Both the position numbers and the translations under genes were made by a program. DNA of 20,679 nucleotides, from positions 1 to 20,679 of the IMG/VR virus record IMGVR_UViG_3300017786_000192; one strand, written 5' to 3'. The notes below the pieces were generated by a model. The model was not told where the DNA came from and did no database searches. It worked only from the letters and a program-made list of their open reading frames with translations. Source of the DNA: a virus. Shown in pieces: positions 43 through 20,679 of the stretch; within the stretch, counting starts at the first letter, position 1, and every line of letters begins with the position of its first letter.

Positions 43-933
43 CTACTTAAAACGTCTGGGACTATTCACATACACTTGTTTGAACCATTTGCTCTGTTGA
101 GGTTCAAGAGGCGTCATGCCAATGTTAACACCCACATCAATTAATGACTCGCTGTAATGTTTCATCAATTGTTCAGCATTGGATTGTTCAACTTCATTCC
201 ATAGTTCATCTAGAAGTGCAAAATCTCTTGTTTTGTTTGTGTCCCAATCTGTACACATTGTAAGATAACATCCGTGTCTTGCGCCGAAGCAACTCCACCA
301 ACCATGATCAATATCTGTACCCACGTTCATCCATATCAATAATTTTTGTAGATTGTTTATCCATATTTCTGTGTTAATGTCTTGCACTCTCTTGCCACGA
401 TTCAAACTCATTTTGACTCCCTCTCTAAAACCTGCTCTCCAAGCCTGACAAGGTGTAGAATTTATAACGCTGGTAGAATAACATTCTGGCAATTGATAGT
501 ATTTGTCAAAATAACAAAATTCAATTTGTGTTTCATCTGTGCCGTCTGTGTTTTCATGAGTTTTCATATTTCTAACAAAATCTCTAGTCCACATTTTAAG
601 ACTGCCGTTGCCGTATTTTAAATTGTTTACATTAATATTGCCAGTCCAACTGAATTGATAATCATCTGTCAATCCAAGCACTGTGGTGTCCAGTTGTACA
701 TTTAAAAATTTAGGATCTACTATTGTGTCACCGTCAACTGTTATAAAATGTTCTGTGTCTGAAACTTCTGCACAGGCTTTGTGAGCGGCATCTATACCAT
801 CTACACCATGCACACGTTTTGCCCAAGGTATTTTCCGTTTAAGATCAGCAAAGTTTTTCTCAGCATTTTGTTCAGCATAACTGAGGAACACAAAGTCCTG
901 CTCTGCAATTTTTATTATATTACGCTGTGTCAT
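43..933 (-). CDS. GT-A-like glycosyltransferase candidate, family 2 copy b, 296 aa
   Basis: Paralog of the 226-aa gene with an extra N-terminal 9-10 residues and a C-terminal extension of about 60 residues. Shared blocks are EQNAEKNFADLKRKIP, RVHGVDGIDAAH, FITVDGDTIVDPKF with DGD at 67-69, LKYGNGSLKMW and AWRAGFREGVKMS (164-176). The middle inserts a Cys- and Tyr-rich stretch (FCYFDKYYQLPECYSTS). The C-terminal half is Trp-rich (DHGWWSCFGARHG, CTDWDTNK), possibly forming the acceptor-binding part. The start ATG at 933 overlaps the 226-aa gene by 14 bases; AGG eight bases upstream is a modest ribosome-binding site. It is the last complete gene of the operon in view. The 42 bases beyond its stop contain no supportable start on the minus strand. 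Confidence 0.7.
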   Translation of the reverse strand: MTQRNIIKIAEQDFVFLSYAEQNAEKNFADLKRKIPWAKRVHGVDGIDAAHKACAEVSDTEHFITVDGDTIVDPKFLNVQLDTTVLGLTDDYQFSWTGNINVNNLKYGNGSLKMWTRDFVRNMKTHENTDGTDETQIEFCYFDKYYQLPECYSTSVINSTPCQAWRAGFREGVKMSLNRGKRVQDINTEIWINNLQKLLIWMNVGTDIDHGWWSCFGARHGCYLTMCTDWDTNKTRDFALLDELWNEVEQSNAEQLMKHYSESLIDVGVNIGMTPLEPQQSKWFKQVYVNSPRRFK

Positions 934-1600
934 TGTTAAACCTATTTGCTAACCAAGAATAATCATTTATCAAATTCATTTTGTCTGTGTTTTTATTTAA
1001 TGCTCCAAACTCTCTGCCTGCCTTGGCTCCGGCAATGGCATAATCTCCAAAAGGTCTATCTGCTCCCACAGAACACCATGTGTCCAATCTTTTTTCTGTT
1101 TCTGTATCCACTTGTCTATCTATCACCTTGGCACTTAATTTTGCACACTCTCTAAAGCCACTGCGCCAAGCACTGTAATTGTTTATGTTGAACTCTGCAA
1201 CGTTGCTCACTGTGGGCATGACTTTAAACTTATCACTGATGCTCGTGCTCATATCCACTGTGTTCAAATCCATTTTTCTTGTGAGTAAAGTGGGAAATAA
1301 TTTGACTCCACCATATCCATATTCTAAATCATTAATTGGATTCCTACTGTGCCACACATGGACAACATCTAGATCATATTGATCCACTTTGTAATTAAAA
1401 TTGAATTCTGGAACAAGTACAGCATCTGCGTCTACCACATACATCATTTCTGTTAAACAAATTTTTGCCGCCACTTGATGTGCTTGATGTATGCCTTTTA
1501 CTCCACTGATCCTGTGTACATTGGGTGCTTTTTGTTTGCACAATTCATAATTCTTTTCTGCATTAGGTTCTTTTACATCTATAAAAAATACATCATACAT
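920..1600 (-). CDS. GT-A-like glycosyltransferase candidate, family 2 copy a, 226 aa
   Basis: Compact protein with a glycosyltransferase-like core. The first strand VFFIDV is followed by EPNAEKNYELCKQKAP, RISGVKGIHQAH and MMYVVDADAVLVPEF, where DAD (57-59) matches the DxD metal and nucleotide-sugar site of GT-A enzymes. LEYGYGGVKLF (about 92-102) and AWRSGFRECAKLSA (about 144-157) are shared with the next gene and define the family. At 226 residues it is short for a complete GT-A enzyme, so the acceptor domain must be small. GGAG eight bases upstream supports ATG 1600, which overlaps the 190-aa gene by 8 bases. It overlaps the next gene by 14 bases. I have seen related proteins among uncharacterised marine T4-like phage genes; the activity is inferred. 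Confidence 0.7.
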   Translation of the reverse strand: MYDVFFIDVKEPNAEKNYELCKQKAPNVHRISGVKGIHQAHQVAAKICLTEMMYVVDADAVLVPEFNFNYKVDQYDLDVVHVWHSRNPINDLEYGYGGVKLFPTLLTRKMDLNTVDMSTSISDKFKVMPTVSNVAEFNINNYSAWRSGFRECAKLSAKVIDRQVDTETEKRLDTWCSVGADRPFGDYAIAGAKAGREFGALNKNTDKMNLINDYSWLANRFNNDTA

Positions 1601-2165
1601 GACTGTACTCCAAAATTTTTCTACAAAATATACTGCAATCTTTTTTCTCTACATCAACAGGCACTGTGATATTTTGATCTACTAAATCTTGTAAATTAAG
1701 TTCAATCATTTTGTGTAGTATGCTGTGATCATTTTTTTTACAAACATAAAATCTATGTGTACTATCTTTTTTAAATGAATCTTTTATTGTGTGTTTCATA
1801 GATTCAGTGGCACTGATCAATATCTGCTTGTCTGTGTGTGTAAAAACAATTTTAGATTCTAAATCATTTTCTTGCAGTTTGTAAAAATTTAAATTAGCAA
1901 AATCATCATTATTTGGCACATTATCTTCAGGAGTTACTTTTACAGTGTTTATGTATTTGTATTTTCCATTTTCAAATAACACTTTGTAAAACGCCATGTT
2001 TTCACTGCCTTTGTGTATTGCTTCTGCTAGTGTGTCGGGTATCTCAATCGAATTACTTTGTTTGACAACACTCATGCTTTCAATCATGCCTGTGCCTGCA
2101 TCAAAATGAAAGTACCATGTGTGCTGTACTTTTTCTACGCCAAACTGTATGTCTTTTCTTTCCAT
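1593..2165 (-). CDS. Protein of unknown function in the glycosyltransferase operon, 190 aa
   Basis: I do not recognise this protein. It looks soluble, with no signal peptide or membrane helix. The first half is beta-strand-like and aromatic (HTWYFHFDAGTGMIESMS, then YKVLFENGKYKYINTVKV). The second half is lysine-rich with alternating strands and helices (KIVFTHTDKQILISATESMK, HRFYVCKKNDHS). Three cysteines occur towards the C-terminus. It overlaps the 284-aa gene by 31 bases, the longest overlap in the window, and has only a weak ribosome-binding site (AGATAGA), so it probably depends on coupled translation. It overlaps the next gene by 8 bases (ATGTATGA). By position it is the counterpart of the 113-aa gene: a small protein in front of a transferase pair. 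A role as chaperone, adaptor or substrate is only a guess. Confidence 0.65.
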   Translation of the reverse strand: MERKDIQFGVEKVQHTWYFHFDAGTGMIESMSVVKQSNSIEIPDTLAEAIHKGSENMAFYKVLFENGKYKYINTVKVTPEDNVPNNDDFANLNFYKLQENDLESKIVFTHTDKQILISATESMKHTIKDSFKKDSTHRFYVCKKNDHSILHKMIELNLQDLVDQNITVPVDVEKKDCSIFCRKILEYSHV

Positions 2166-2989
2166 ATTCTATCTATTATTTGTTGGAGTTCTGTGTTTAA
2201 AAAATTGTCTTGGACATAATGCAGTAATTGTTTTTGCACCACATTGTTTATTTTGATTTGCAAATTGTCATCATATGCAACTGGTATTTCATTAATCCAA
2301 TTTTCATCCACATTCCATTTTTGCAGTCTTGTTTTCATGTGTGTAAAAGTCAAGTTTTTATTGGTTATTGTGTTTTTAAACTTCATTATTTTGCAAGTGA
2401 TTGCTGTGGACACATCTAAACTGCACCATTGCTGTTTGTGTTCATTGCAATACATTCTTGAATATTTTTTATAATTTTGCATAACTTCTGATAGCAAGGC
2501 AAAAAAATTATTATTGTATTCTGTTTTTTTAAAATAAAACATACCACAATAGATATTAGGCAAGTCGTTGGCAATGAATGTTTTTCTATACAAAGGATGT
2601 GTGACTACGGTTTCATCCATAAAGTTTTTAACTTGATTTGTGAAATATAAATCTGTGTGTGCCAAGATATTCCACCAATAATCTAAACTGCTCAAGCACA
2701 ACATATCACTATCCAACACAATAGTTTCATCATATTTACTTGCTTCATAAATTTTGTGTCTATTTTGTATTTTCCAATCTTGTGCAGAAGCCTCATCATT
2801 GCCTGGTATATCAAACACTTTGTCAAAACATTTACGTTGTGCATCTGTTAGCACACAATTGGTCATGATAGAAACATTGTTAATTTCATTAAAAATTTTT
2901 ATACTTTTAGCCAATGCAACTGCTTGACCGAGATAATCTTTTTGTTCGCTGGCTTGCACAAATATAAAATAACCTCTAGTTGTATTCAT
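2135..2989 (-). CDS. GT-A-fold glycosyltransferase-like protein, family 1 copy b, 284 aa
   Basis: Paralog of the 273-aa neighbour. The N-terminus reads YFIFVQASEQKDYLGQAVAL, followed by the strand VSIMTNCVLT. The motif ETIVLDSDMLC places the likely metal-binding DSD at 93-95. NIYCGMFYFKKTEY and a C-terminal QLLHYVQDNF with His257 match the copy-a layout. I place the start at ATG 2989 because AGGA at 2996-2999 lies six bases upstream. The longer frame would start with TTG at 3010, inside the same ribosome-binding stretch. With this start the overlap with the previous gene is 14 bases. Sugar donor, acceptor and activity are unknown. One of the two copies could be a non-catalytic partner, but both keep the DxD. 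Confidence 0.7.
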   Translation of the reverse strand: MNTTRGYFIFVQASEQKDYLGQAVALAKSIKIFNEINNVSIMTNCVLTDAQRKCFDKVFDIPGNDEASAQDWKIQNRHKIYEASKYDETIVLDSDMLCLSSLDYWWNILAHTDLYFTNQVKNFMDETVVTHPLYRKTFIANDLPNIYCGMFYFKKTEYNNNFFALLSEVMQNYKKYSRMYCNEHKQQWCSLDVSTAITCKIMKFKNTITNKNLTFTHMKTRLQKWNVDENWINEIPVAYDDNLQIKINNVVQKQLLHYVQDNFLNTELQQIIDRIWKEKTYSLA

Positions 2990-3797
2990 TACATATCCTA
3001 TCCAATGCAAACTTATTCATCACGTGCATATTGGCATTGTTTATATTACATCTATAATATGTGCCATCATCTTTAGGCAGTGCAAATTTCCATTTATTGT
3101 TTGTAAAATCCAGTACTTTGTCTTTGTCAGTAACATAGAACAACTTGATTGGCAATGCTCGATCATTTGGTCTCGCTGTGAAGTTATTCATCATGTGCAT
3201 AGCAATAGTGAAAGCATAGTCATTTCTGTATTTTGTTTCATTAATGCTGTAGGCAAATCTGTAGAACTGATAATTTGCTTTAATATGTTTCACTAGGTCA
3301 AAGTACTGTGTTGTCCAATTAGTTTTTTTAAAATAAAACACAGTTGCCCAATACATTTTTATAAAATTGTCCATGTATTCAATATGGTAATTTTGCTTAT
3401 GATTTTTATTAAGATATATTGCTTCGTTGTTTATCAACAAGTCTTGTTTGCTGTCAAAACATTTTAGCAAGTTGCTGTTGCCAATTATCATATCAGTATC
3501 CATCACAATAGTTTCTTTGAAAGGAGTAAGTGCAAAACTGTCGACACGACTGTGATTGTCCCAAACAACTTCCTTCATGTTGTCATCATCCATGAATGTT
3601 CTTTTTTGTTTGGTATTAGATGCTTCAACATTTATGATATGATCAAAGCATTTTTCTGAAATATTCTTTTCTGAAGTTACAAGAGCAACAGGCAGTTGCA
3701 AAAATTTTTTAATTTGCGAAGCACAAAAAATTGCTTGGCTTATGTAATCTATTGGCTGTCTACCGTGAGCGTGAAGTAATACACCTTTATCATGCAT
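2976..3797 (-). CDS. GT-A-fold glycosyltransferase-like protein, family 1 copy a, 273 aa
   Basis: Probable nucleotide-sugar-dependent glycosyltransferase acting in the host cytoplasm; donor and acceptor are unknown. The N-terminal strand-helix pattern (GVLLHAHG, then ISQAIFCASQIKKFLQLPVALVTSE) is followed by the metal-binding type motif ETIVMDTDM with DTD at 100-102. A FYFKKTNW segment and a late MHVMNKF with His258, a candidate second metal ligand, complete the set. It is clearly paralogous to the next gene (compare KYDETIVLDSDM and MFYFKKTEY there). There is no signal peptide or membrane helix. The start ATG at 3797 overlaps the 113-aa gene by 8 bases and is preceded by AGGGAG six bases upstream. 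It overlaps the 284-aa gene by 14 bases. The family name is inferred from motifs, not from a search. Confidence 0.72.
   Translation of the reverse strand: MHDKGVLLHAHGRQPIDYISQAIFCASQIKKFLQLPVALVTSEKNISEKCFDHIINVEASNTKQKRTFMDDDNMKEVVWDNHSRVDSFALTPFKETIVMDTDMIIGNSNLLKCFDSKQDLLINNEAIYLNKNHKQNYHIEYMDNFIKMYWATVFYFKKTNWTTQYFDLVKHIKANYQFYRFAYSINETKYRNDYAFTIAMHMMNNFTARPNDRALPIKLFYVTDKDKVLDFTNNKWKFALPKDDGTYYRCNINNANMHVMNKFALDRICNEYN
2996..2999 (-). promoter_or_regulatory. Shine-Dalgarno AGGA that fixes the start of the 284-aa transferase
   Basis: AGGA lies six bases upstream of ATG 2989, within the end of the 273-aa gene. It argues for ATG 2989 over the in-frame TTG at 3010, which would place this same element inside the coding region. 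Confidence 0.6.
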
Positions 3798-4131
3798 CTA
3801 AATCTCCCTTTGAAGACATCAGTTTATTGTACTCTGCATGATAGGTTTGCAATGCTTCTTGATACTTGGTGGATAGTGTAATTGAAAATTTTTCTGTGTC
3901 TGCAACTGCAAAAGGAGTTTTAAAATCATCCAGCAGAGTGATATTTTGCGTTCTGCCCATGTCCAAATAACTTTTGACTTCTGCAATAAGGATTGAATTA
4001 GCAGTGACTTGGTGTCCATGCCAATACAGAATACTGTTTTCTTCAAATTGTCTCAACAGTATATCTTTTTGATTTTCTATTGCAGACAATCTATCTGCAT
4101 ATTCTAGTATATTAGATATTTTTGATTCCAT
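3790..4131 (-). CDS. Possible tail-fibre assembly protein (DUF4376-like), 113 aa
   Basis: This small soluble protein has a charged, helix-prone N-terminus (residues 1-30) followed by ILYWHGHQVTANSILIAEVK, LLDDFKTPFAVADTEKF and a C-terminal helix with TKYQEALQTYHAEYNKL. The order (a short aromatic 'W-G' strand, a helix, a 'D..tPf.v' turn, a final helix with spaced Tyr/Ala) resembles the DUF4376 domain found in fibre-assembly proteins. Its position after the fibre genes fits. The assignment is by pattern memory, so it is tentative. The start ATG at 4131 lies about six bases from the predicted transcription start, with no Shine-Dalgarno sequence, so it may be read as a near-leaderless message. 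Its last codons overlap the next gene by 8 bases (ATGCATGA). Confidence 0.7.
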   Translation of the reverse strand: MESKISNILEYADRLSAIENQKDILLRQFEENSILYWHGHQVTANSILIAEVKSYLDMGRTQNITLLDDFKTPFAVADTEKFSITLSTKYQEALQTYHAEYNKLMSSKGDLDA

Positions 4132-4143
4132 AACTTTGCAAGT

Positions 4144-4172
4144 ATTATAGCAAAATTTTGTGTGTGAGTCAA
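4144..4172 (-). promoter_or_regulatory. Host-type sigma-70 promoter with extended -10, upstream of the accessory operon
   Basis: On the minus strand TTGACT (4167-4172) is followed by exactly 17 bases and then TATAAT (4144-4149). The bases TGC directly before TATAAT give an extended -10. It lies in the 45-base gap between the 303-aa virion gene and the 113-aa gene; the -35 box begins four bases after the virion gene's stop codon. The predicted start is an A at about 4137, leaving a leader of about six bases before ATG 4131. It differs in type from the late motifs in front of the virion genes. It is a sequence match only; no transcript data are available. Confidence 0.72.
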
Positions 4173-4176
4173 TGAT

Positions 4177-5088
4177 TTAGAGTGTGCTACCGCTCGCTAC
4201 ACTGAATGATGGTACAGGACCTACCACGTTTGTGATGGCTTTTTGGTATTGTACAGAAACTGTCAAACTTCCGTTAACATCTTCATCTACTGGTCCACCA
4301 GAACCTGTTTGGTCGCCTGCGTCTTGATCTCTGAATATCACACGCACATAAAGGTTTGATGTTGAAGTTTTTTGTACCACAATGTAGTAATCATTTTCTG
4401 TGTACACACCAGTACCGCCATTCAATTGACTGTACACTGTGTAATTTTGTCCAACATTGAAATCATACCAACCTTGACTGGTTGTTGTACCTTGTGATCC
4501 ACTTCTTGATGTGGATGTGTAATTGATAGTGATTGTACCTGCAGGACCTAAAATGTTGTTTTTCCAGTCTGCTGTTTTAGAACCACTACCACCTGAAATT
4601 GATGATGTAATTTTTAATGTTCCACCGGAATTAAAAAAGTATCTTGCATCATTGGCAGTTGCAAAACTCATGTTGAATCTGCGTTCAATTGTTGAATTCC
4701 AAGTTGATGTTCTTGTTTTCGAAACTGTTGAATTGTACTGTTGTAGAGATGCTCCTGCAACTGTTAACCTGTTTGTTGTAATGCTTGTTGCTAGTGCTTC
4801 ATATTGATCCCAACCTTTGAAGTCTGTTGTGTCGTCATCATAAATTAATTCACCTGCAACCACTTCTTGTAGTTGTGCCGCAGTTGGATCACCACCATTT
4901 TGGTGTCTGTATGATTTTCTCACGTCTTCGTATAGATTGTTTAGGTCGTCTGCTTGAACCAAATCGCCAACACTCACAGATGAACTCTGCAGTGTTTGAC
5001 CGTAACCTGAGTTACCTGTTCCTACGCCAAGTACTGAATCAACACTTGATCTTAAATTGTTGTATCTTGTTGCTGTTATAATTGCCAT
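4177..5088 (-). CDS. Marine phage virion structural protein, 303 aa
   Basis: The N-terminus (RYNNLRSSVDSVLGVGTG, SGYGQTLQSS, LNNLYEDVRKSYRHQNG) resembles an N-terminal domain I associate with small virion proteins of marine cyanophages and pelagiphages. Residues 140-200 hold the segment ERRFNMSFATANDARYFFNS followed by GGTLKITSSISGGSG and DWKNNILGPAGTI, also typical of such proteins. The rest is Thr/Ser/Gly-rich beta sequence. There is no signal peptide, membrane helix or catalytic motif. A late-promoter motif (5110-5117) lies 21 bases upstream of the ATG, and a purine-rich GAAGAAGA serves as a weak ribosome-binding site. It is the last gene of the virion block, followed by the sigma-70-like promoter of the accessory operon. 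It is probably a fibre or head/tail decoration; the exact place in the particle is unknown. Confidence 0.75.
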   Translation of the reverse strand: MAIITATRYNNLRSSVDSVLGVGTGNSGYGQTLQSSSVSVGDLVQADDLNNLYEDVRKSYRHQNGGDPTAAQLQEVVAGELIYDDDTTDFKGWDQYEALATSITTNRLTVAGASLQQYNSTVSKTRTSTWNSTIERRFNMSFATANDARYFFNSGGTLKITSSISGGSGSKTADWKNNILGPAGTITINYTSTSRSGSQGTTTSQGWYDFNVGQNYTVYSQLNGGTGVYTENDYYIVVQKTSTSNLYVRVIFRDQDAGDQTGSGGPVDEDVNGSLTVSVQYQKAITNVVGPVPSFSVASGSTL

Positions 5089-5109: not shown

Positions 5110-5117
5110 TATTTATA
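5110..5117 (-). promoter_or_regulatory. T4-type late promoter motif (TATAAATA) before the 303-aa virion gene
   Basis: This is an exact TATAAATA, overlapping the TAA stop (5113-5115) of the 487-aa fibre gene and 21 bases upstream of ATG 5088. Unlike the other two late motifs it is not followed by AAGGAG; the leader is AT-rich with GAAGAAGA close to the start. Confidence 0.58.
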
Positions 5118-6576
5118 ATTTAAGCATTACCTCGATATTTTTTATGGCATCATCTTCATTTGATTGTAATGCAAAGCCTACCAAATTGTTACCGTCAGTT
5201 GACGCTGTGCCATCCTCAGAAGCATAAACTCTGTCTCCTTTTTTGACTGCACCTATAACTTTTACTGGAACACGTCCTACCAAAGCAATTGATTGTCCGT
5301 CTGCATCTTTGTTCATTAAGAAAGCAGGTTTTTCTGAAACAACTCCTAAAGGTTGTGAGTTTTCATCACACGCTGTCATTTCTGCACTGCCTGATCTCTG
5401 TATTGTCATTACTGTTCCAACTTCGTATTCTTTGTCTGTTGAATATTTTTCAGCCAAGTCAGCATAGTTGGCTTGTGAAGCAATACCATTGAACACAACT
5501 GCTGAAATATTTCCTGATGAATCTCTTAATGGAGTTGAGTTTGCAACAGCACCTGTGTTACCAGCATAAACTGTTCCGCCTGCTAAAATTCCTGTAGATG
5601 AATCTGCGTTTCCTTTAAATGCTGTAGAATGCATTTCATCCCATTTGTTTGTGGCTGTACCAATTGTTCTTACGCCTGATGCACTTGGTTCAAAACCGTC
5701 TGTTGTAATTCTTGCAATTTCAGTTACTGGTCCAGATGCATTTACTTTGAATACAATTTCATCACCTATTTCATTTCCAATGTGTACTTCGTTGTCATTT
5801 TGAATGTCAACTCTTAAGTCACCGTCGTCACCTAATAAAAATCCTTGGTCACTGAATCTTGCTAAACCTTGGAATGCACTTCCACCTGATTGTAAAAATT
5901 CTGTTGGTAATTTTCCACCAAATCTTAATGCATTAGAAGATGTTCCATGAAACTGATGATCAGTTGATGTTACACCGTTAGTTGCGTTTTGTGTGTTCTT
6001 TAAAGTTAAACCTGCTCTAATTACATCAAAGCCTGTGATAACATTGGCAGGGTCTGCCGTTGAAACTGTAAATTCAGATTGTGATATTACATATATTACT
6101 TCATCGTTAACAACTGCTTCAATAATTAAATTACTTGCATTGGTTGTGTCTACGATTGTTCTGCTTCTTAATTGTGTTACAGCATCTCCAACGCCTTGTG
6201 GACCTACTAGTGTGAATGAACTTCCGTTGTATGCGTACAACTGTTCATTGGAAGTGTCCCACCAAAAGTCACCTGTTACAAGTCCTGTTGGTTGCGTTGC
6301 TGATACTTCAGCACCACCTGTTGTTTTAAATTTTGTACCATCATAAAACTTTAATTTATTAGTGCCTGCATCAAACCAAAGTTGACCACTTATCGGTCTT
6401 GCTGGACTGTTAGAACTAGCAAATGATTCTAGTAAGTGTAAAAAGTTTTCGTTCTGGATTTCGCCGTATCCTGCATAGTTTTTACCCACAAAACGTAGGC
6501 TAGTAGACTGGTCTATTGTACCATCATCAACTGAGGATAATAAAGTGCCATCAAATTTGTTTATTGTATATGCCAT
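5113..6576 (-). CDS. Tail fibre paralog with YADLAEKY-type C-terminal module, 487 aa
   Basis: Third and shortest fibre paralog. The shared N-terminal module is well preserved (GKNYAGYGE, ENFLHLLESF, RPISGQLWFD, TGDFWWDT). The shaft is shorter and includes a TIGTATNKWDEMHSTAFKG unit (about 298-316), comparable to the IGSSDKKFLNVYG unit of the 676-aa paralog. The C-terminal 115 residues form a module beginning YADLAEKYSTDKEYEVGTVM, with GVVSEKPAFLMN and VGRVPVKVIGAVKKGDRVYAS. I recognise it as a recurrent fibre-tip module in marine phages whose function is not known to me. The gene has its own late-promoter motif (6595-6602) and AAGGAG (6588-6593), unlike the coupled 676- and 750-aa genes. Its stop overlaps the promoter of the next gene. 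Confidence 0.87.
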   Translation of the reverse strand: MAYTINKFDGTLLSSVDDGTIDQSTSLRFVGKNYAGYGEIQNENFLHLLESFASSNSPARPISGQLWFDAGTNKLKFYDGTKFKTTGGAEVSATQPTGLVTGDFWWDTSNEQLYAYNGSSFTLVGPQGVGDAVTQLRSRTIVDTTNASNLIIEAVVNDEVIYVISQSEFTVSTADPANVITGFDVIRAGLTLKNTQNATNGVTSTDHQFHGTSSNALRFGGKLPTEFLQSGGSAFQGLARFSDQGFLLGDDGDLRVDIQNDNEVHIGNEIGDEIVFKVNASGPVTEIARITTDGFEPSASGVRTIGTATNKWDEMHSTAFKGNADSSTGILAGGTVYAGNTGAVANSTPLRDSSGNISAVVFNGIASQANYADLAEKYSTDKEYEVGTVMTIQRSGSAEMTACDENSQPLGVVSEKPAFLMNKDADGQSIALVGRVPVKVIGAVKKGDRVYASEDGTASTDGNNLVGFALQSNEDDAIKNIEVMLKL

Positions 6577-10895: not shown

Positions 10896-11507
10896 TTACT
10901 CTCCAAGTAAACCAGATAAACTTTGTATTCTTACTGTATAATCAATTTGTATTAATCTGTTCAATGATTTTTGCACCGGATGGAATATTACATGAGTCAA
11001 CAAGTTTCCTGTTCCGTTTGCATTGTAACTTACTAAACCTAATTCGTCAAACACATATGTTCCTTCAGTGTTGGTTGCATTGTCCACTGCATCTTGACCA
11101 TTTGGTTCACCGTAGTCCAACAAACAAGTAGTCAATACATCTGTATAGTTTGTTCCGCTTAAATGTCTTGTTTCTATTTTGTTTCTTTGTGGATCTAGAT
11201 TTGAAACTGATCTGTCATCAACAATTTTGCTGTATGTCTGATTGTAAAGACTTGCATTAGTGCCTGTGCTGTTTGGCGTCAAGTATGTAATAATACCTGT
11301 AGGGTCAATTGATGTACCACCATTACCAAAAGCCATAGAACTTATAAATCCTTTGCCTTCATTGGCGATACTTTGTGCAAGTGCTAAACTCATGTTTTCA
11401 TAATGAATAGCATTGCGTTTGTTCACATACACCTTGCCGGATTCAGGATCATGTATCTTGATATGACCTTGTATGCTTACACCGTTTTTATCTCTGATTT
11501 GTGTCAT
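10896..11507 (-). CDS. Conserved virion structural protein, 203 aa
   Basis: This looks like a conserved structural protein of marine myophages encoded between the giant baseplate or fibre protein and the fibre genes. It has no catalytic motif, signal peptide or membrane segment. Features that match my memory of the family are an early NAIHYENMS segment (about 32-40), FGNGGTSIDPTG (about 61-72), TYVFDELGL (about 149-157) and the C-terminal THVIFHPVQKSLNR plus IDYTVRIQ. The start is ATG at 11507, preceded by AAGGAG at 11520-11525 and a late-promoter-like AATAAATA at 11527-11534. The gene ends with TAA and a second in-frame stop TAG, directly followed by the ATG of the next fibre gene. A role as an adaptor between baseplate and fibres is inferred from position only. 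Confidence 0.75.
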   Translation of the reverse strand: MTQIRDKNGVSIQGHIKIHDPESGKVYVNKRNAIHYENMSLALAQSIANEGKGFISSMAFGNGGTSIDPTGIITYLTPNSTGTNASLYNQTYSKIVDDRSVSNLDPQRNKIETRHLSGTNYTDVLTTCLLDYGEPNGQDAVDNATNTEGTYVFDELGLVSYNANGTGNLLTHVIFHPVQKSLNRLIQIDYTVRIQSLSGLLGE

Positions 11508-11526: not shown

Positions 11527-11534
11527 TATTTATT
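11527..11534 (-). promoter_or_regulatory. T4-type late promoter motif (AATAAATA) before the 203-aa gene
   Basis: The motif differs from the T4 late consensus TATAAATA at the first base. It overlaps the stop codon (11530-11532) of the giant gene and is followed by CAAGGAG, with ATG at 11507. The downstream 15 bases ATAAATACAAGGAGA are identical to those before the 487-aa fibre gene. In T4 such elements are read with a phage late sigma factor and sliding clamp; that machinery is not in this window. Confidence 0.55.
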
Positions 11535-14500
11535 GCGGCAAAGTCACTTCTTTTTCTCGTAAGAAATTTCCTATGCGATTATCTGTTTGAGATAGTGTTT
11601 TTGTTGTATTTTCGTCAATTATTTCGTTCCAAACTCTACCAACACGTCTAATTACCGTGATTTTAGTACCAGTTGGTATATTCGTGGTGTTTGCTATGGT
11701 AAATGTTGACTCATTTGGATTAACATTTGTCACTGAATATTCTGCTGGTAGTGTAATATCAGCATCTGGACTGTCTAAATCCTTGGTCACATCAAAAGAC
11801 TGTGTACTGTTTTTACGCATTCTCACGCCACCAACAAACAATTCAAACTCATTGGTGCTTTGTGCCGCCCAACCCAGTTCAAATGTTGCATCAACACCAT
11901 CATATGTGTAAACTTGGGTAATTGTCTGATCTTTGTAAGGAACAGTTTGATGAGCACTTTGGTCAAATACTTCTGTGTTTGATTGGTATACGTCTTTTAT
12001 ACCTGTTCCTTTAGTGCTTCTTCTCAGTTGACTCACTTTGTTGTCAGCATCTATTCTGTAGTATTCAATTCTTTCGCCTTCTATAAACAACACACCCGGT
12101 TCCAGTGTTCTTAGATTAGGCTTGGCCAATCCATCTGTGGTATTAAGTTGAATTTCTTTGTCATGGAAGTTCAATGGTTGTGCAAGATAGTAACGTCTGT
12201 CATCACCTAGTCTTCTAAATGTAGTTGCGTTGGTCATATCTTTAAACTGTCTAAAGCCAAATTTTGTAACAAACTTAGGTGAAGAGAAATGTATCAAGTC
12301 AATCTGATCATTTGTGTTTATAGCAGTTCCTATTTTTACAAACATTTGATCATTTGTAACTTTGTAGTCTACACTCGGCGATAATTTTACACCATTCACA
12401 TACACCCAAACGTACTGAGCATCAGTGGCAGGTCTTCTCAATCTTATTCTACCATTTTGTAGTTGTTGGAACACATAATAATCTTCGCTGTTGGCTTGGA
12501 TTGTTTGTCTAGCCACAACATCGTAGTTTATTCTTTCAATTTTTTGTATATCGTGGTTGCTAAATTCTGTTACAAGTATTTTTTGTCCTTGTGCTGGAGC
12601 ATTTACAAATAACAAGTTTCCGTTATCATCTATTGTGTAATCTCCGTCTGACAGTACAAATACTTTCAGTAAGTCACCTGCGACTCCGATACCTGTTTGC
12701 AATTTGACTGAACTGTTACCAGCGTCCCAAACAAATTCGTTTGATTGTAATTCAACATTGTTCAAGTACACTCTAACATCAGATGCACTTGCTGAACCTT
12801 GTGGTTGTTGCCAATCTGGTAATTCATACTCTAACAAGTTTGAAATAGTAAATTCAAAACTAAATCCTGGATTTAATACCAATCCATTCACTTCAACAAT
12901 AGTGTTGTGTCCTAAAGGTGTTGCATTAAATGGAGTTTGACTTAATGCATATGAAGTAGAACTTCCGTCTGCTGTTAATGTTTCATGTGTTACTTCACTG
13001 AATGATTTACTTGTACTTGCATATACAACGAATGATACAACATCATCTGATGCTGGTGCTGAATTAAATCTAATCACCAATCTCTTATCTGCACCGTAAT
13101 TTTCATTACTTTCAAATGTTGTAAATGCAGTAGTTCTTACGCCATTTATTGTAACATACAAACTTAAATCTGCAGAATAAGTTGCTCTTGTTAAAAAGTC
13201 TATTGTACAATCATCGCCTGTAAGTGTGTCAATGTCTAATATTTTCTCACCATTGTTACTCATTGTAGCGTAATTAATTTTTGCACCACTTGTAGGTGCT
13301 GTTGCAAACACAATTTTTTTGTTTTGGAAATCTACGGTGTAATCATTTCTATCAACCTGTGCATTGTTTACAGTTACAAAAACTGCATCAACACTTTGTG
13401 GGAAATCTTGGAAAGTGTAATCAGTTGTTGTACCATCACCTACATGGTTGTAACTAGATATTTTAGAACCTGTTTCTCCACCTCTGTCAAAAACTTGTAT
13501 GTCCAAAGTATCAAACACGTGTCCTGGAACCAATTCTTCTGGACCTTTACTTGTTGTTGGAGTAACAAATCCATCACCGTCAACATTAATATCCTCTGCG
13601 TTTGTACCTGATGCTGTTGAGTAACCTAAATTACCACCTTCAAGCAGTGTATCATATGCAGTTGGATCAGCCAAGAAACTTCCGTCACTTGTCGACTTAC
13701 GCACTTCAAATTTATCATTGTCAACTGTTGGCACGCCTAATGCCAATAAATCTATCACTTGTTGTTGACCATCTCCCGTAATACTTGTCATGATTGCATT
13801 GCTGTTTAGTATAGGTGTTGAACCATCTGATGGATAATTTGGATCATCTATACGCACACCATTTCTATAAACATTGTAAACAACACCATCTTCTAAAGGT
13901 TTGTTCAATTGTAGTGCAGTTGTACTGCCGTCAACTGTAAAAGTTTGATCTTCAAAAGTTTCATCAAACACATCAAATGGTGCAGACATATAATCTGTTG
14001 CAAGATATCCTGATGAGTTTACAAAGTCTAAACTAGTAATTTCCACTCCACCATAATCTATTCCATCAACTAGTTGTGCTAATTGTTTGCCTGGCATACC
14101 GTCAGTTGGTGAATAGAACAATTGAATTCTGTCAAAGGCTTGTAGTTGTTGTGGGTCAATACTATATTCTATCTCTACTGTTAAACCAACTGCTATTGCA
14201 CTTTCAAAAGTGACTCTTCCTTTGTATCTTTCATATGAATTTTTAATATCTTTTAAATTGCTTATTGTGTATTCTGTATCTAGTATTTCTAAATTATCAA
14301 CTTTTACTTTTGTTTTGCCATTTGTAATATCCATTGGCCATTTTAAATCATAATTTACTTGACCTGTGCCGCCTGTAAATGTTTCTACTTTTTGCAAAAT
14401 TGTATTTGTTGATGCTTCATCTGTAAAAATTCTAGATATTCTATCAAACTTACTTGTGATGTGCGTTGACTTCACAAGAGACTCGCCTAATACTGCATAC

Positions 14501-17500
14501 AGTCTTGCAGTTGTACCGTCTGCATTGAAGTTCTCAATAGTAACAGTTGGGCTAGACAAGTATCCACTACCTTGCGTCAACATTTCTATTCTTTTAATTA
14601 CGCCGGCTCTAACAACTGCTTTTGCAGTTGCACCTGTTCCACCGCCACCAGTGATTGTTATTGCAGGTGTCAGTCCATATCCTGAACCACCATCAGCAAC
14701 TGTGATCTCTTTGACTTGGAATCCAACATTGTCTGACCAATGTTTGTCTGGATACGTGTCGTCAACATTGCCAACTATGGCGCTGTCTTGAACTTTTGCT
14801 CTAATAGGATTGATTTGTTTATTTGAATCATATTTAGGTGCAAGATCAAAGTCAGTAGTTTGCATATCTGCAGGTTCGATTTTATCGTAAGTACTAACAT
14901 ACTCTCTAATTTTAGTTTTGTATGGTTTGACTTCTTTAATGTAATCTTCATAATTTGCAAGATTATCATTGTTAAAAGAAACTTTTTGTTGTAACTCACC
15001 AACATTGTGTTGTGCTTTCACAAAACTAGTCTTCATTGCAAAGTCTGTGATTTTGTTTTCACTTAATGCATATCTTAAACTGCTGAAGAACAATTTATTG
15101 TATTCAACTTTTAAATCTTCAATTAATAAATTGTTTTTAATTGTGTCAACAATAATTCTTGTTTCTTTTGTAGGAATAGCATCATAATACAAAGTGTCAT
15201 AGCCTGTGCTTTCATATCCTAATGTAGAACTAAAGTCATACAAGTTATTTTTAAGTTGTATAGTACCATTTTGTTTACCAACAGTTTTAAAGTTTTGTGT
15301 ATAATCATCTGTAACATTATCTGCAATTTTTTCTAATAGTAACCAACCACCAGAACCTACAGTTTGAATTTTAACAATGTTTCCTATTTCGCAATTTAAT
15401 CCTAATAATTCATAAGATTGTAACACGCTGAAATCAATTGCTGTAAACTGATTGTATCCTGTTGCATACCAATCTGCGTAGTCCCAATACAGTTGTACAT
15501 TAACACTTTGAGTTAATGTTTTGTTCCAAACGGTGCCGTTATACTCATATAGAGCCCATCTGCCGCCCAGTGTTGAGTCACTGGTAACAAGTACTGCATA
15601 ATTTCTTAGTTCAACAGTTGTTGTATTAGTGTAACCTGTACCTTGTTTAAGCACTGTGGCTGTTGCTATTTCGCCATTGCTGTTCAGTGTTAAACCGATC
15701 ACAGCACCTGTGCCTTTACCAATTATTTTAACTTCTGGCACTGTTTTGTAACCAGCACCTTTGTCTAGTATTGTTACAGCAGTGATGCTTGAATCAACCA
15801 CTGTTACTGATAGACTGGCTTGTTTTAAATTTGCAACTCCAATAAAATTCAAATCATCTACACTATCAACCACTTGGTCAATTAATCTAGAGTTTAATGT
15901 GGGGGCAGTTTCTAATTGTAGCAATGGTGATATATCCTTTGTGTCTACAATTAAATTTTGTGCAAACACACTGTTGACTCTCTCCACATACTGTTTCATT
16001 GCTTCAATTCTGTTTTTGAACCAACCTTGTATTGGACGCATACTTGTTCCGTATCTAATTTTTTCATTTAGATTAATGTCTGGCACATAATTTCCAAACT
16101 TATCTCTTCCTACTAAACTGTTAAACCAACTTAATTCCAAATCATAACCAGGCACACTGTTTGGATCATTCTCTGTGATTATTTGATATTCTGTATGAAT
16201 GTTGATATCTGTTTGTGGAATAGTCCAATATCTAATATTAAGTATTGAGTTTTCTCCATCAAGAATATTATTACAGTTGACTAAACCAAATTTATTTGGT
16301 CCATAGAATTGAATATATTTTATTCCCTCTTGCTGAGGATTTTCTATTATTTTGGCAATTTTTTCTGCACTTATCTTTCTGCTTTCTAAAGCAGGTGTAT
16401 CTTTTTTATTTTTTACCCAAAAATAGTATACAGGAATTTTACTTTGAGCAACACTATCAAATCTATTGTATGCCACATAAGCATTGTCACCATTTTTAGA
16501 AGTTCCTGTGATTCCTAAAGTGCTTCCGTTTGATGATTGTGATAATGCATCGTATTGGCTAGGAGTGTAAATGCTTTCTGTCCATTCATACACATCAATA
16601 CTTGCACCATTAATCAGCATATTACTATTATTGTTATTGTATATCAAATCGTTTTGATATGGATATTTGAAACTTGCTTTTGAAATATCCCACCATACAC
16701 GACCAATCTGCTGACTCATCCAGTGGTTAGTTTCATCTTGATTCCCAACTGTGCCTATATTATAAACAGCAGGATCAAATGGTGTTTTAAATGAAATCTC
16801 TTGTTCTGCTATGCCGGCAATTTTACCCTGCAACACATCAATATAATCCAGTGTTGTGTAAATTTTTTGTGTGGATTTGTTGTACACAAACACAGATTTA
16901 ATTCTTTCTAAATTTACTGTGTCATGTGGAGTTCTAATTTTTCTCCATGCATTAGTATCACCTCTTCTGTAATCTAAAACTGTTCCAACACCTGTGCCTA
17001 ATAATTGTAAATCTGTTAAAGCAAGTGTAATGTGATTGTTTCTTACAACAAAGTTATCACCAAACGTGTCTACTGTGCTGTCTGCATAGTAACTAAATTT
17101 TTCACCATATAATAATGTACCATCTATGTTATTGAATATGTGTACAGCACCAACACCTTTGGATGTTGCTACAACTAAAGTTCCGCCATCAAATTCTAAT
17201 GCAGAGCCAAATAGATCTTCTGCACCTTGTTCAGGTGTTCGCAATGTTTGATTTAAACTGTATGCACCGTTAGTTTGTTTGTAAACATATACAACTCCAG
17301 CATTTGCATTTGACAAATCTTGTCCAGGTGTACCAACTGCAATAAATGTTCCGTCTTCGCTGACTGAAACTGAAGTGCCGTATGTTGTTTCACCGCTTGG
17401 CGCTGTAAGTGTTTCTGAATATACATAGTGTCCATCTTTTAATCTGTAAACTGTAACATTGGTTTCATTGGTATCAAATGTATTGCTTGTAGCAAGTATA

Positions 17501-20500
17501 GACCCATTCTTAGAAACATCTGATGCTTTTGCAAATTGAAGTAATCCATTTTGCACCATTGTAGAGTCTTCATTTGGTTGCACCAATACACTGCTGTCAT
17601 GTAATGTTTGTTCTGCATTTGGTATGACGTTTCTGTGATCTACTCCTGTATCAAGTTGTGTCCAAGCCTGAGAACTTAATGAACTGTTTGCATCTACGTT
17701 AGATTGTGCTTGATAAAAATATCCTGCACTGTAAACAACATCACCAGAGTAGTAAGGCACATTATCATCAAATGGTCCTTTGTAATTTGTATTTTTTGCT
17801 TGTACCCAAGTTCCATTATCATTTTTTATCACGTGAATTGAACCAAAGTTACTTGCTTCATTGTTACCTTGAGCTGAAATAAATGCGTAATATTGTCCGT
17901 TGATTAAACCAAAATTTATTTTAGAGCCAAGTCTTAAATTGCTTTTAGTCTCTGGCACTGTGTATGCACCTTGTAAAATAAACTGTGATCCTGGACTTCT
18001 TGAATATACAACATACGCACCTTCGTTGGTGCCTCCACTTGTTATACCTTCTCCTAATGGAATATTGTAAACTTGTTGCCAATCTTTGTTTACTTTGCTT
18101 GGTATGTTTGCTAATCTCGTTGTTCCTTGAATTGTTATTTCATTCCATAACCAATATTCTTCTCCAATAGATTCATACACAACAGTATTTTGAACAGGTG
18201 GAGTTAAAAAGTTTGCGTCTTCAAACACACACAGTGAACCTGCTGATTGGTTTTCAAATTCTGTTTTTAAGATGGCACCCATCAATCTATTTGGTGACCC
18301 TATTATTGTGATGTTACCTGCTTCATTGTGTTGACTTCCTAATCTAAACGAACCTGATTTATTTTTTATAAACAGTTCAACTTGGTTAAATCCGACAGTC
18401 CTTACAAACGCAACTTCACCTGTGTTAGCAGTTGTATCATCTATTACTGTGTCACCAACATTAGGCACATAAAATATACCATTAACATCGGGTTGTACTT
18501 GTATTAAAACTTTTCCATTCCAAATGTCTTTGATTTGTAATTTTTTATTTGTTTTTGCATAAGGTAAACCTAGTACATCTGGATCGTATCTATTTCCTTG
18601 GCTGTCTCTGATTGTGTTTACCCACAAATTTACAGTGTTGTTGATCGTTTCAGTGCCTCCATCGTAAGGCACTTTGCTTGACATCATTGAAGCAGTTGCT
18701 CTCACAAACCAAAGTTTGCTTGTCTTAAATCCTGTTGATTCACCTGTTCCAGAAACAACAAATTCTTGCTTGAAAGACAGCACAGCGATTTCACTTGCTT
18801 CAGTTGGATGATCTGGTTGTGTATTTGTTTTTTGTTGTTCAGTATCTAAACTGTTTACATATACTTGAGCACTTCTGCTTGTTTGATTTTTAATTATATC
18901 TTTAATAACCAATGCTGGATTTACATCAAATGCTGTTGCATTTTGAACATCTGCATCTGTAGGATAACTTGTTGGCGTTGGCGTCACGTTGAATGGAACT
19001 GCTATTACCCACCAACCTCTGTTGTATTCGTCTTCATCTGTAAATGCAATACTGTAACTTCCAACAGGCAAATCTACTCCAGTAAACAAATCACCTGTGT
19101 CTGCTAAATCTCCACGCAATTCATTTACATAAAGTAAAGTTTTTGTTCCTACTTTTCTTGAATATACAACTTTAGCATTGCCCGTTGTTGTGTAAACTAA
19201 ATCTTGTACTGCAGGATCATTTACAGTTTCATTGATAACAATAATTTTTTCAACTTTGTGTACAATAGCATGTTCACCAGTTAAAAACGCACTGTCTATA
19301 TTTGATTGTGCATATGTTCCATTAAACGGTTCTCTACCTGCAGGATATATCGAAGTGAATTGATTCCATTTCAGTTGAAGTTTGTCACCAACTGCTGTTC
19401 CACTAAACTGTTCTGTGTTTGCTCTAACCAACATATGGTCTGTGGTTACATTTGAAAATACATGATCACCTATTACAAGGTTTGTAATATTTTTGTACTC
19501 ACTATTATCAGCATCATACGTGCCATCAAATGCAAAAACATGACTGTCAAAACTTGTAAAGTCTATAGAATCATCTTGGCTGAATATCTTATTCAAAGAT
19601 TTCCATAGTTGCTCTTTGTATTCAACAATTTCATTTACGTTGTAGTCATTGCTTGTATTGTAAGTGCCTTTAAAATTACTTCTTATATTAGTTGCATTAG
19701 GCACACCAACAATTAAATGTAATCCGTCATCACTGACAGCAAGATTGTCACCATACTGAACACCTGTGTCAAATACTTGTGAAGTGGAAGAAAAAATATT
19801 GTCAGTTGGTGAATCAATAATTTGCAACAAACTGTATTGTCCGTTCTCTGTTCCTCTTTCATACACATAAACTTTTCCTTCTTCTTCACCTGTTGCAGAA
19901 ATGGCAATCAAAGTATTTTTTCCATTGGCTGAAATTGCTTTTCCAAAGTTTGTGTTTGTTTCTTTTGTGTTACTAATTTGCTGATGTGATTTGTAGACAG
20001 CATTATTTTTCACAACTGCCCAACGGTCGTTGTCACTAGTGTCTATCCAAAACTTATCATTTTCGACAAGACCTCTGTTGTAAATTATATCATTCATTTG
20101 GTCTGCTGTTTCAATTCGTGATTCAACAAGTGTTAAAATTTGTGCATTTTCATCATCCTTTACACTCTCATTGAGTGCTACAACTAGAGTTGTTCCAACG
20201 TTGCTGATAACTTTTAGTGTGTATTTTGTATCAGCAAATACCAATACAACATATTCTCCTGCTGTAACTGTTATACTGTTGTCTAATACTAAAGTAATAT
20301 TGTCCGCTTTTGTGATTGATGTGCTTGTTGCACCACTGTTCAATACTTTATATACATTCCATAATCTATTGTTGTAGCCTGTCCAAATGTATTGATCAGC
20401 AAATATTAAACTGGCATCTAATGTGGAAATATCATCATAACTGAATACAGAGTGATCTACATCTTGTAAATCTACATATCCACCACTTTGTAAAACTGAA

Positions 20501-20679
20501 CTGTCAATAAACTTCTCTGGAAAAGGATTTCCATCATAGTTTGCACTTTTTAAAAATACATCTTTTTCAGGGATAGTAATACGTAAATCAATGTTGTTTA
20601 CATTTTCTATTTCTTTAAGTTCAAATGGCTGAGGATTCAATCTAATTTTTTGTTCGTCTAAAGTAAATTCAATTTCTTG
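11530..20679 (-). CDS. Giant modular virion protein (baseplate/tail-fibre class), 5' end outside the window
   Basis: Residues are counted from the first ATG at 20640, but the frame stays open for 13 more codons to the window edge. That ATG lacks a Shine-Dalgarno sequence, so the real start is upstream and the protein exceeds 3,049 aa. Two blocks of FG-GAP-like beta-propeller repeats are visible, near residues 230-316 and 900-1225 (motifs NFGKAIS, TYGTSVSVSEDG, LFGSALEFDG, each with a GxVyVy strand). Two short aromatic modules resemble chitin-binding CBM5/12 folds (about 320-346 and 950-1000). Glycine-rich GxGY..P.(V/I).I.G.GTGA units lie near 1627-1675 and 1978-2050. A VKPYKTKIREY segment (about 1900-1917) and an IEGERIEYY/LRRSTKGTG segment (about 2785-2905) recall large marine T4-like structural proteins. 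From about 2080 to the end, repeated beta modules carry V.VNGV....DY signatures. No enzyme motif was seen. It is probably a baseplate or fibre component; its exact T4 counterpart is unclear. Confidence 0.85.
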   Translation of the reverse strand, partial: QEIEFTLDEQKIRLNPQPFELKEIENVNNIDLRITIPEKDVFLKSANYDGNPFPEKFIDSSVLQSGGYVDLQDVDHSVFSYDDISTLDASLIFADQYIWTGYNNRLWNVYKVLNSGATSTSITKADNITLVLDNSITVTAGEYVVLVFADTKYTLKVISNVGTTLVVALNESVKDDENAQILTLVESRIETADQMNDIIYNRGLVENDKFWIDTSDNDRWAVVKNNAVYKSHQQISNTKETNTNFGKAISANGKNTLIAISATGEEEGKVYVYERGTENGQYSLLQIIDSPTDNIFSSTSQVFDTGVQYGDNLAVSDDGLHLIVGVPNATNIRSNFKGTYNTSNDYNVNEIVEYKEQLWKSLNKIFSQDDSIDFTSFDSHVFAFDGTYDADNSEYKNITNLVIGDHVFSNVTTDHMLVRANTEQFSGTAVGDKLQLKWNQFTSIYPAGREPFNGTYAQSNIDSAFLTGEHAIVHKVEKIIVINETVNDPAVQDLVYTTTGNAKVVYSRKVGTKTLLYVNELRGDLADTGDLFTGVDLPVGSYSIAFTDEDEYNRGWWVIAVPFNVTPTPTSYPTDADVQNATAFDVNPALVIKDIIKNQTSRSAQVYVNSLDTEQQKTNTQPDHPTEASEIAVLSFKQEFVVSGTGESTGFKTSKLWFVRATASMMSSKVPYDGGTETINNTVNLWVNTIRDSQGNRYDPDVLGLPYAKTNKKLQIKDIWNGKVLIQVQPDVNGIFYVPNVGDTVIDDTTANTGEVAFVRTVGFNQVELFIKNKSGSFRLGSQHNEAGNITIIGSPNRLMGAILKTEFENQSAGSLCVFEDANFLTPPVQNTVVYESIGEEYWLWNEITIQGTTRLANIPSKVNKDWQQVYNIPLGEGITSGGTNEGAYVVYSRSPGSQFILQGAYTVPETKSNLRLGSKINFGLINGQYYAFISAQGNNEASNFGSIHVIKNDNGTWVQAKNTNYKGPFDDNVPYYSGDVVYSAGYFYQAQSNVDANSSLSSQAWTQLDTGVDHRNVIPNAEQTLHDSSVLVQPNEDSTMVQNGLLQFAKASDVSKNGSILATSNTFDTNETNVTVYRLKDGHYVYSETLTAPSGETTYGTSVSVSEDGTFIAVGTPGQDLSNANAGVVYVYKQTNGAYSLNQTLRTPEQGAEDLFGSALEFDGGTLVVATSKGVGAVHIFNNIDGTLLYGEKFSYYADSTVDTFGDNFVVRNNHITLALTDLQLLGTGVGTVLDYRRGDTNAWRKIRTPHDTVNLERIKSVFVYNKSTQKIYTTLDYIDVLQGKIAGIAEQEISFKTPFDPAVYNIGTVGNQDETNHWMSQQIGRVWWDISKASFKYPYQNDLIYNNNNSNMLINGASIDVYEWTESIYTPSQYDALSQSSNGSTLGITGTSKNGDNAYVAYNRFDSVAQSKIPVYYFWVKNKKDTPALESRKISAEKIAKIIENPQQEGIKYIQFYGPNKFGLVNCNNILDGENSILNIRYWTIPQTDINIHTEYQIITENDPNSVPGYDLELSWFNSLVGRDKFGNYVPDINLNEKIRYGTSMRPIQGWFKNRIEAMKQYVERVNSVFAQNLIVDTKDISPLLQLETAPTLNSRLIDQVVDSVDDLNFIGVANLKQASLSVTVVDSSITAVTILDKGAGYKTVPEVKIIGKGTGAVIGLTLNSNGEIATATVLKQGTGYTNTTTVELRNYAVLVTSDSTLGGRWALYEYNGTVWNKTLTQSVNVQLYWDYADWYATGYNQFTAIDFSVLQSYELLGLNCEIGNIVKIQTVGSGGWLLLEKIADNVTDDYTQNFKTVGKQNGTIQLKNNLYDFSSTLGYESTGYDTLYYDAIPTKETRIIVDTIKNNLLIEDLKVEYNKLFFSSLRYALSENKITDFAMKTSFVKAQHNVGELQQKVSFNNDNLANYEDYIKEVKPYKTKIREYVSTYDKIEPADMQTTDFDLAPKYDSNKQINPIRAKVQDSAIVGNVDDTYPDKHWSDNVGFQVKEITVADGGSGYGLTPAITITGGGGTGATAKAVVRAGVIKRIEMLTQGSGYLSSPTVTIENFNADGTTARLYAVLGESLVKSTHITSKFDRISRIFTDEASTNTILQKVETFTGGTGQVNYDLKWPMDITNGKTKVKVDNLEILDTEYTISNLKDIKNSYERYKGRVTFESAIAVGLTVEIEYSIDPQQLQAFDRIQLFYSPTDGMPGKQLAQLVDGIDYGGVEITSLDFVNSSGYLATDYMSAPFDVFDETFEDQTFTVDGSTTALQLNKPLEDGVVYNVYRNGVRIDDPNYPSDGSTPILNSNAIMTSITGDGQQQVIDLLALGVPTVDNDKFEVRKSTSDGSFLADPTAYDTLLEGGNLGYSTASGTNAEDINVDGDGFVTPTTSKGPEELVPGHVFDTLDIQVFDRGGETGSKISSYNHVGDGTTTDYTFQDFPQSVDAVFVTVNNAQVDRNDYTVDFQNKKIVFATAPTSGAKINYATMSNNGEKILDIDTLTGDDCTIDFLTRATYSADLSLYVTINGVRTTAFTTFESNENYGADKRLVIRFNSAPASDDVVSFVVYASTSKSFSEVTHETLTADGSSTSYALSQTPFNATPLGHNTIVEVNGLVLNPGFSFEFTISNLLEYELPDWQQPQGSASASDVRVYLNNVELQSNEFVWDAGNSSVKLQTGIGVAGDLLKVFVLSDGDYTIDDNGNLLFVNAPAQGQKILVTEFSNHDIQKIERINYDVVARQTIQANSEDYYVFQQLQNGRIRLRRPATDAQYVWVYVNGVKLSPSVDYKVTNDQMFVKIGTAINTNDQIDLIHFSSPKFVTKFGFRQFKDMTNATTFRRLGDDRRYYLAQPLNFHDKEIQLNTTDGLAKPNLRTLEPGVLFIEGERIEYYRIDADNKVSQLRRSTKGTGIKDVYQSNTEVFDQSAHQTVPYKDQTITQVYTYDGVDATFELGWAAQSTNEFELFVGGVRMRKNSTQSFDVTKDLDSPDADITLPAEYSVTNVNPNESTFTIANTTNIPTGTKITVIRRVGRVWNEIIDENTTKTLSQTDNRIGNFLREKEVTLPQ

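Follow-up and report, generated by a model that had tools for sequence, protein, structure and literature searches.

The window analysed here is a complete viral record from IMG/VR (IMGVR_UViG_3300017786_000192; 20,679 bases), and the subject of this report is a gap of 45 nucleotides (nt) at positions 4132 to 4176 of it. The main genes all lie on the minus strand, in the order giant structural open reading frame, tail-fibre-like g10, g9, g8, g7, the gap, and then g6 to g1, which are six tightly packed and mostly overlapping genes. The gap is exactly 45 nt long from the stop of 4177-5088(-) to the ATG of 3790-4131(-). It holds a predicted sigma-70-type promoter, and this promoter lies inside an inverted repeat. 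The gap and the genes on either side of it contain the following features.

4177..5088, minus strand: g7, a virion-block protein adjoining the fibre genes, directly 5' of the gap
4167..4172, minus strand: -35 hexamer TTGACT, kept as TTGAC[A/T/G] among relatives
4150..4157, minus strand: 5' arm of the inverted repeat, AATTTTGC, within the promoter spacer and present only in read-through RNA
4144..4149, minus strand: -10 hexamer TATAAT with TGC before it (extended -10)
4137, minus strand: predicted +1, 7 nt past the -10 by standard sigma-70 spacing, giving the 6-nt leader AAAGTT
4132..4139, minus strand: GCAAAGTT, the matching 3' arm, which runs up to the ATG; the repeat has 8 pairs, of which one is G-U
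3790..4131, minus strand: g6, 113 amino acids, first gene of the operon, with a predicted tail-fibre-chaperone-like fold

The minus strand of the gap reads TTGACT-17-TATAAT and matches the consensus at 11 of 12 positions, and the spacer ends in TTTTGC, which supplies an extended TGn. These are the elements that the original prediction had reported, and all of them are present. The number of such sites in the window is unremarkable, with 73 sigma-70-like matches vs 78.2+/-8.7 in shuffles, and one site of at least 11/12 with a 17-nt spacer, where 0.58 are expected, is not rare by number. The location is the unusual part, since a site this good on the correct strand of the gap has a probability of about 2e-4 by arithmetic. 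Judged by its conservation among relatives, and not by the counts in the window, the gap promoter is real and well beyond chance.

Relatives were gathered by scans with g6, g7 and g5, and they are all uncultured contigs. The gene order g8-g7-gap-g6-g5-g4-...-g1 is kept among them, with g6 down to about 25-35% identity. A promoter was called where a TTGAC[A/T/G]-16/17-TATAAT-like sequence scored at or above the 95th percentile of shuffles, and one is found immediately 5' of g6 in 61 of 69 distinct upstream regions. The median position weight matrix score upstream of g6 is 12.7 vs 5.6+/-1.6, and the perfect TTGACA-17-TATAAT is present in 21 of the 69. A separate scan with a g5 profile yielded 41 further g6 genes that share under 90% identity with the first set, and the promoter exceeds the 95th percentile in 35 of these. 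The 17-nt spacer is nearly constant (49 of 50 independent relatives), while the TGn is retained in just seven of the 50. Comparison of this gap among related genomes had been proposed earlier as a check, and in both sets of uncultured relatives it finds the promoter conserved.

The distribution of motifs within 100 nt upstream of each gene shows that two promoter classes meet at the gap. ATAAATA is found 5' of g7 in 35/61 cases and of g8 in 40/60, but 5' of g6 in 0/68, and the next three downstream genes also lack it (0/66, 0/63, and 0/60). It is likewise absent 5' of g6 in the separate g5-profile set (0/41). The sigma-70 pattern is found at g6 in 60/68 and almost nowhere else, so the class border is sharp. 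The exceptions are eight extra g7-like copies and a motif four genes downstream; the latter (10/57) was rejected as a promoter, being a coding motif (FDNLDISIYT-like). Late motifs in the window itself lie beside the virion genes, as had been claimed for the virion genes nearby, although the two copies of TATAAATA compare with 1.5 expected.

5110..5117, minus strand: late-promoter motif TATAAATA, shortly 5' of the g7 ATG, overlapping the g8 stop codon
6595..6602, minus strand: late-promoter motif TATAAATA, shortly 5' of the g8 ATG
11527..11534, minus strand: late-like motif AATAAATA, 5' of gene 10896-11507
5113..6576, minus strand: g8, a tail-fibre-like protein

Overlap of the TATAAATA motif 5' of g7 with the g8 stop codon is also frequent among relatives. 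The class split bears out the proposal that the promoter parts virion genes with late motifs from a separately transcribed operon.

The promoter class at g6 is very likely pre-late. The gene for the late sigma factor (gp55), which must be made before late transcription, serves as an internal control. A gp55-like gene is found in 10 of the 11 records searched, that is, in all those of at least 69 kb. All ten of these genes (L218-L227) carry a TTGAC[A/T]-17-TATAAT-type promoter, near-perfect TTGACA-17-TATAAT, and the sharing of this type with late-sigma genes places the g6 promoter before the late class. The claim that the operon is made early is therefore supported as to promoter class, while its exact timing is something we infer.

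The promoter lies within an inverted repeat that the original prediction had missed. The window's 5' arm, AATTTTGC (4157-4150), lies in the spacer and pairs with GCAAAGTT (4139-4132, up to the ATG), and the loop holds the -10. The 5' arm is thus upstream of the predicted +1, and the 3' arm lies over the ribosome-binding region. The arms differ among lineages, for example CCCCTATTCAT/ATGAATAGGGG in L051, CTCCTATTAGT/ACTAATAGGAG in L065, and AACCTCCGATGTT/AACATCGGAGGTT in L032. In a permutation test, the spacer of each lineage was paired with the leaders of other lineages. Across 50 clusters the native pairs give -9.76 kcal/mol vs -5.51+/-0.32 for permuted pairs, the lowest of 5000 permutations being -6.61, which indicates compensatory divergence. 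The result is repeated in the new g5-profile set (-6.87 vs -4.87+/-0.35; 0/5000 permutations). Kinship makes swapped pairs resemble native ones and so works against this result. The signal is by far the strongest at g6, where z is -10.8; elsewhere z lies between about 0 and -2, except for -5.9 at g7 in one split. In these phages the gp55 promoters have no such hairpin (free energies, dG, of -1.7 to -5.5), and none was found at other sigma-70 sites in three long contigs.

The hairpin is more constant than the promoter class, because it is kept in regions that have no scored sigma-70 site. Fourteen regions with a sigma-70 score under the cut still have it (-10.49 vs -6.0+/-0.84; 0/3000). Several of these regions hold another motif in the loop. 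In L087, L105, L104, L099, and L110, where no sigma-70 site was scored, NTAAATA-like motifs (AGTAAATA, TGTAAATA, and CTAAATA) lie within the hairpin or next to it, which looks like a switch of the nested promoter to the late class in these lineages. L180, L211, L205, L192, and L110 have strong hairpins, no sigma-70 site, and a common loop motif, GATAATTAC, which is possibly another promoter class.

The RNA that reads through from the fibre genes and the RNA that starts at the promoter differ in predicted structure. Opening the region from -18 to +3 costs 10.4 kcal/mol in the read-through RNA, 6.4 with a swapped spacer, and 2.9 in the promoter's own transcript (p 1.4e-9). For the window type the corresponding values are 7.8, 4.4, and 0.7 kcal/mol. 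In most relatives a Shine-Dalgarno sequence lies within or beside the 3' arm, and at least half of it is paired in 39 of the 46 relatives that have one. The window clade has a predicted leader of 5-6 nt that lacks a Shine-Dalgarno sequence, so its translation should be of the leaderless type, and window positions 4132-4137 are a candidate for it. Several other window genes, g5 and g8 among them, do have a Shine-Dalgarno sequence. A transcript start near 4137, as proposed earlier, agrees with the +1 predicted from sigma-70 spacing; the leader that it leaves is only 6 nt long and has no Shine-Dalgarno sequence.

The best explanation, and probably the right one, is that the gap is an insulated promoter, in which a pre-late start of sigma-70 type sits inside a hairpin that would silence late read-through RNA. 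A host-sigma-70-type promoter, used ahead of gp55-dependent late transcription, would start a near-leaderless g6-g1 mRNA. RNA reading through from the late fibre genes would fold, placing the hairpin over the g6 initiation region. Only this RNA can fold, because transcripts from the predicted start begin past the 5' arm, and it is expected to be poorly translated because its initiation region is costly to open. Where a U tract follows the stem, as in about a fifth of relatives, the read-through RNA may also terminate. The promoter-started RNA has no 5' arm and would be free and translated. With the read-through RNA silenced, late transcription would not feed the operon. The fibre genes have a high late output, and the arrangement may serve to keep expression of a fibre-chaperone-like protein and glycosyltransferases independent of it. 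The conserved promoter and hairpin, the class split, and the structural difference of the two RNAs are results of the computation; from these we infer that the operon is early, that the hairpin blocks translation or terminates transcription, and why it should do so.

Other arrangements are known in which the origin of an RNA decides whether it folds over its start site. The transposase mRNAs of IS10 and similar elements have a 5' structure that shields them from outside promoters. The gap resembles these in that the outside RNA would fold over the start site and the RNA from the gap's own promoter would not. Nothing found here marks the operon as a mobile element, unlike IS10, and it has a fixed place in the phage genome. 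The T4 genes e, soc, 49, and I-TevI have a late promoter inside a hairpin, which leaves the early read-through RNA silent, and in segB and Aeh1 mobE too the promoter is enclosed by a hairpin, which covers the ribosome-binding site (PMC3014915, PMC2988022). As in T4 e, soc, and I-TevI, the promoter in the gap is nested in an inverted repeat with the 5' arm upstream of the +1 (here predicted), the longer read-through RNA would fold over the initiation site, and the promoter-started RNA has no 5' arm. The difference is that those nested promoters are late, whereas the one in the gap is of sigma-70 type and late virion genes give rise to the read-through. Also, what would be silenced here is an operon for a chaperone-like protein and glycosyltransferases, in a design that a large family of uncultured phages has conserved. 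L087, L104, and L105, with their NTAAATA-like loop motifs, may have the T4 polarity. The literature searches turned up no form of the T4 hairpin with an early promoter. In the part of the CBB report drawn on here, that phage has an ATAAATA late motif, RpoD-like promoters in a presumed early region, and a gp55-like sigma factor (PMC5259590). CBB and GAP32 thus resemble the present phages in having two classes, sigma-70-like for early regions and ATAAATA before structural genes, and in encoding a gp55-like sigma. They differ in that the same part of the report describes neither a nested hairpin nor a conserved sigma-70 promoter by the fibre genes.

Several alternatives were weighed against an insulated promoter. 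The repeat could serve mainly to end transcription of the late fibre operon as an intrinsic terminator; the promoter would then share its DNA, and translation control would be incidental. A U-rich tract follows the stem in about 11-12 of the 50 relatives, for example L032 (AACATCGGAGGTTTTTTT-ATG), L062, and L100, and L104 has a separate strong terminator upstream. However, the 39 of 50 that have no U tract still have the repeat (-8.0 vs -5.03+/-0.34; 0/3000), the window has no U tract, and the pairing covers the initiation region, so a terminator is an unlikely main role. It is somewhat less likely still that a sigma-70 promoter alone serves the accessory operon, which is how the original prediction saw the gap, and that the hairpin has no role. 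The promoter evidence does stand by itself and the window's own hairpin is weak, but the conservation of the hairpin is specific to g6 and replicated, and the same promoter class at gp55 has no hairpin. Dyads centred on the -10 or the start are classic operator sites, and the repeat might be a DNA operator for a repressor or activator of the gap promoter. This is improbable, since the arm sequences vary by lineage while their complementarity is kept, as RNA pairing predicts, and the dyad is present also where a sigma-70 site is not seen. The least probable alternative, and a very remote one, is that the operon is transcribed late through read-through and that the hexamers are coincidental. The window count equals the shuffle expectation and the 45-nt gap has no strong terminator, yet the fixed 17-nt spacing is conserved across proteins of 25-35% identity.

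Some results weigh against an insulated promoter itself. The upstream regions of g7 also show some structure (z -5.9 in one split), which is unexplained. The hairpin of the window clade is modest, with 8 AU-rich pairs, about -6.5 kcal/mol, and an invariant 5' arm, and in the weak half of the set the signal reaches only moderate significance (12/3000). For the Shine-Dalgarno bases alone, the unpaired fraction is 0.28 in read-through RNA vs 0.34 with swapped spacers (p 0.06); this measure is too weak against swapped controls, so the opening energy of the initiation region was used instead. The 5-6-nt leader of the window clade, lacking a Shine-Dalgarno sequence, would require leaderless-type initiation. 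Sigma-70 promoters need not be strictly early. In addition, no cultured phage in the collection searched by BLAST (50,697 phage records) carries g6.

The remaining genes of the operon are listed here.

2976..3797, minus strand: g5, GT8-type glycosyltransferase by predicted fold (glycogenin/LgtC), overlapping g6
2135..3010, minus strand: g4, paralogue of g5 (24% identity), overlapping g5
1593..2165, minus strand: g3, protein with no assigned function, overlapping g4
920..1600, minus strand: g2, paralogue of g1 (31% identity)
43..933, minus strand: g1, conserved protein with a putative glycosyltransferase label

g6 is single-copy in all of 12 long contigs, and among relatives it always lies directly downstream of fibre genes. 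Sequence searches of Pfam, PHROG, NCBIfam, and PDB gave nothing usable for it. The structural model has a predicted local distance difference test (pLDDT) score of 92.7. Among its best viral fold matches are many models of DUF4376 proteins (E 2e-3 to 0.1; TM scores 0.43-0.65), and against solved structures prefoldin comes first (Z 7.8), which is ambiguous. By sequence g6 has no match to the DUF4376 Pfam family at E up to 1 (11 members). The modelled fold suggests that g6 may resemble tail-fibre chaperones. The DUF4376 family includes chaperones encoded directly after the fibre gene in Alteromonas phages V22 and A5 (PMC7289586, PMC10579305). g6 is like these in position and may be like them in predicted fold, and it is unlike them in having no family sequence match, its own sigma-70 promoter, and glycosyltransferases next to it. 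In its model g5 has a GT-A fold with a DXD motif in which D100 and D102 are invariant, and it matches glycogenin (Z 16.3) and LgtC (Z 14.0); by fold it is a GT8-type glycosyltransferase. Paralogy with g5 supports the same function for g4. Of the six genes labelled a glycosyltransferase operon, only g5 and, by paralogy, g4 are supported as glycosyltransferases. Early expression had also been taken to favour action on the host surface or phage DNA over the fibres, an argument that is weakened here. It is no less likely that the operon is early and serves fibre maturation, because the predicted fold of g6 may be DUF4376-like and g6 follows fibre genes, and a fibre-directed role is at least as plausible as a host-surface or DNA role. 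Glycosyltransferases in the fibre region of pelagimyophages have been suggested to alter host O-chains (PMC7029224).

The original prediction placed the window among pelagimyophages, and the comparisons do not favour this. g6 has no match in the stretches searched of HTVC008M (first 100 kb) and Syn9, and the window gives only weak repeat matches to the former and weak matches to the latter. The window itself has no marker genes; PF07068 (gp23) is absent from the short contigs and found in long ones. The nearest matches to the capsid gene of the relative L085, at 71% DNA identity, are in jumbo T4-like phages, Vibrio phage 2.275.O and Serratia phage BF among them, so the window is probably on the jumbo side of the T4-like phages. 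Window DNA and the g6, g7, and g5 proteins have no BLAST match among the 50,697 phage records, and g7 has none in Pfam or PHROG.

At the other end of the window, 11530-20679 is one open frame of at least 3049 amino acids that runs off the end of the record, and its product is probably a giant baseplate or fibre protein. A near-identical relative, L134 (contig IMGVR_UViG_3300017746_003569, 16001-35000), extends past the operon. There the opposite strand has genes for a DegT/DnrJ-type sugar aminotransferase, a radical-SAM-like protein, and a nitroreductase-like protein, and an AAA ATPase gene and a VWA/metallopeptidase-like gene are found as well.

Late and middle promoters were not predictable in pelagimyophages by earlier methods (PMC7029224). 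With promoters unpredicted and no cultured phage in the collection carrying g6, no model phage could show when this host-recognition region is expressed. Across about 110 uncultured upstream regions, a single gap shows two promoter classes at a sharp border, and the hairpin should make expression depend on the origin of the RNA. There is an even chance that a transcript-origin filter of reversed polarity operates across a large uncultured T4-like lineage, with a pre-late operon behind late fibre genes silenced in late read-through by a hairpin that encloses the operon's sigma-70 promoter and is better conserved than the class of promoter inside it. In T4 the hairpin keeps late genes quiet early, whereas here a pre-late operon would be kept quiet late. 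This would imply selection for making a fibre-chaperone-like protein and glycosyltransferases independently of fibre output.
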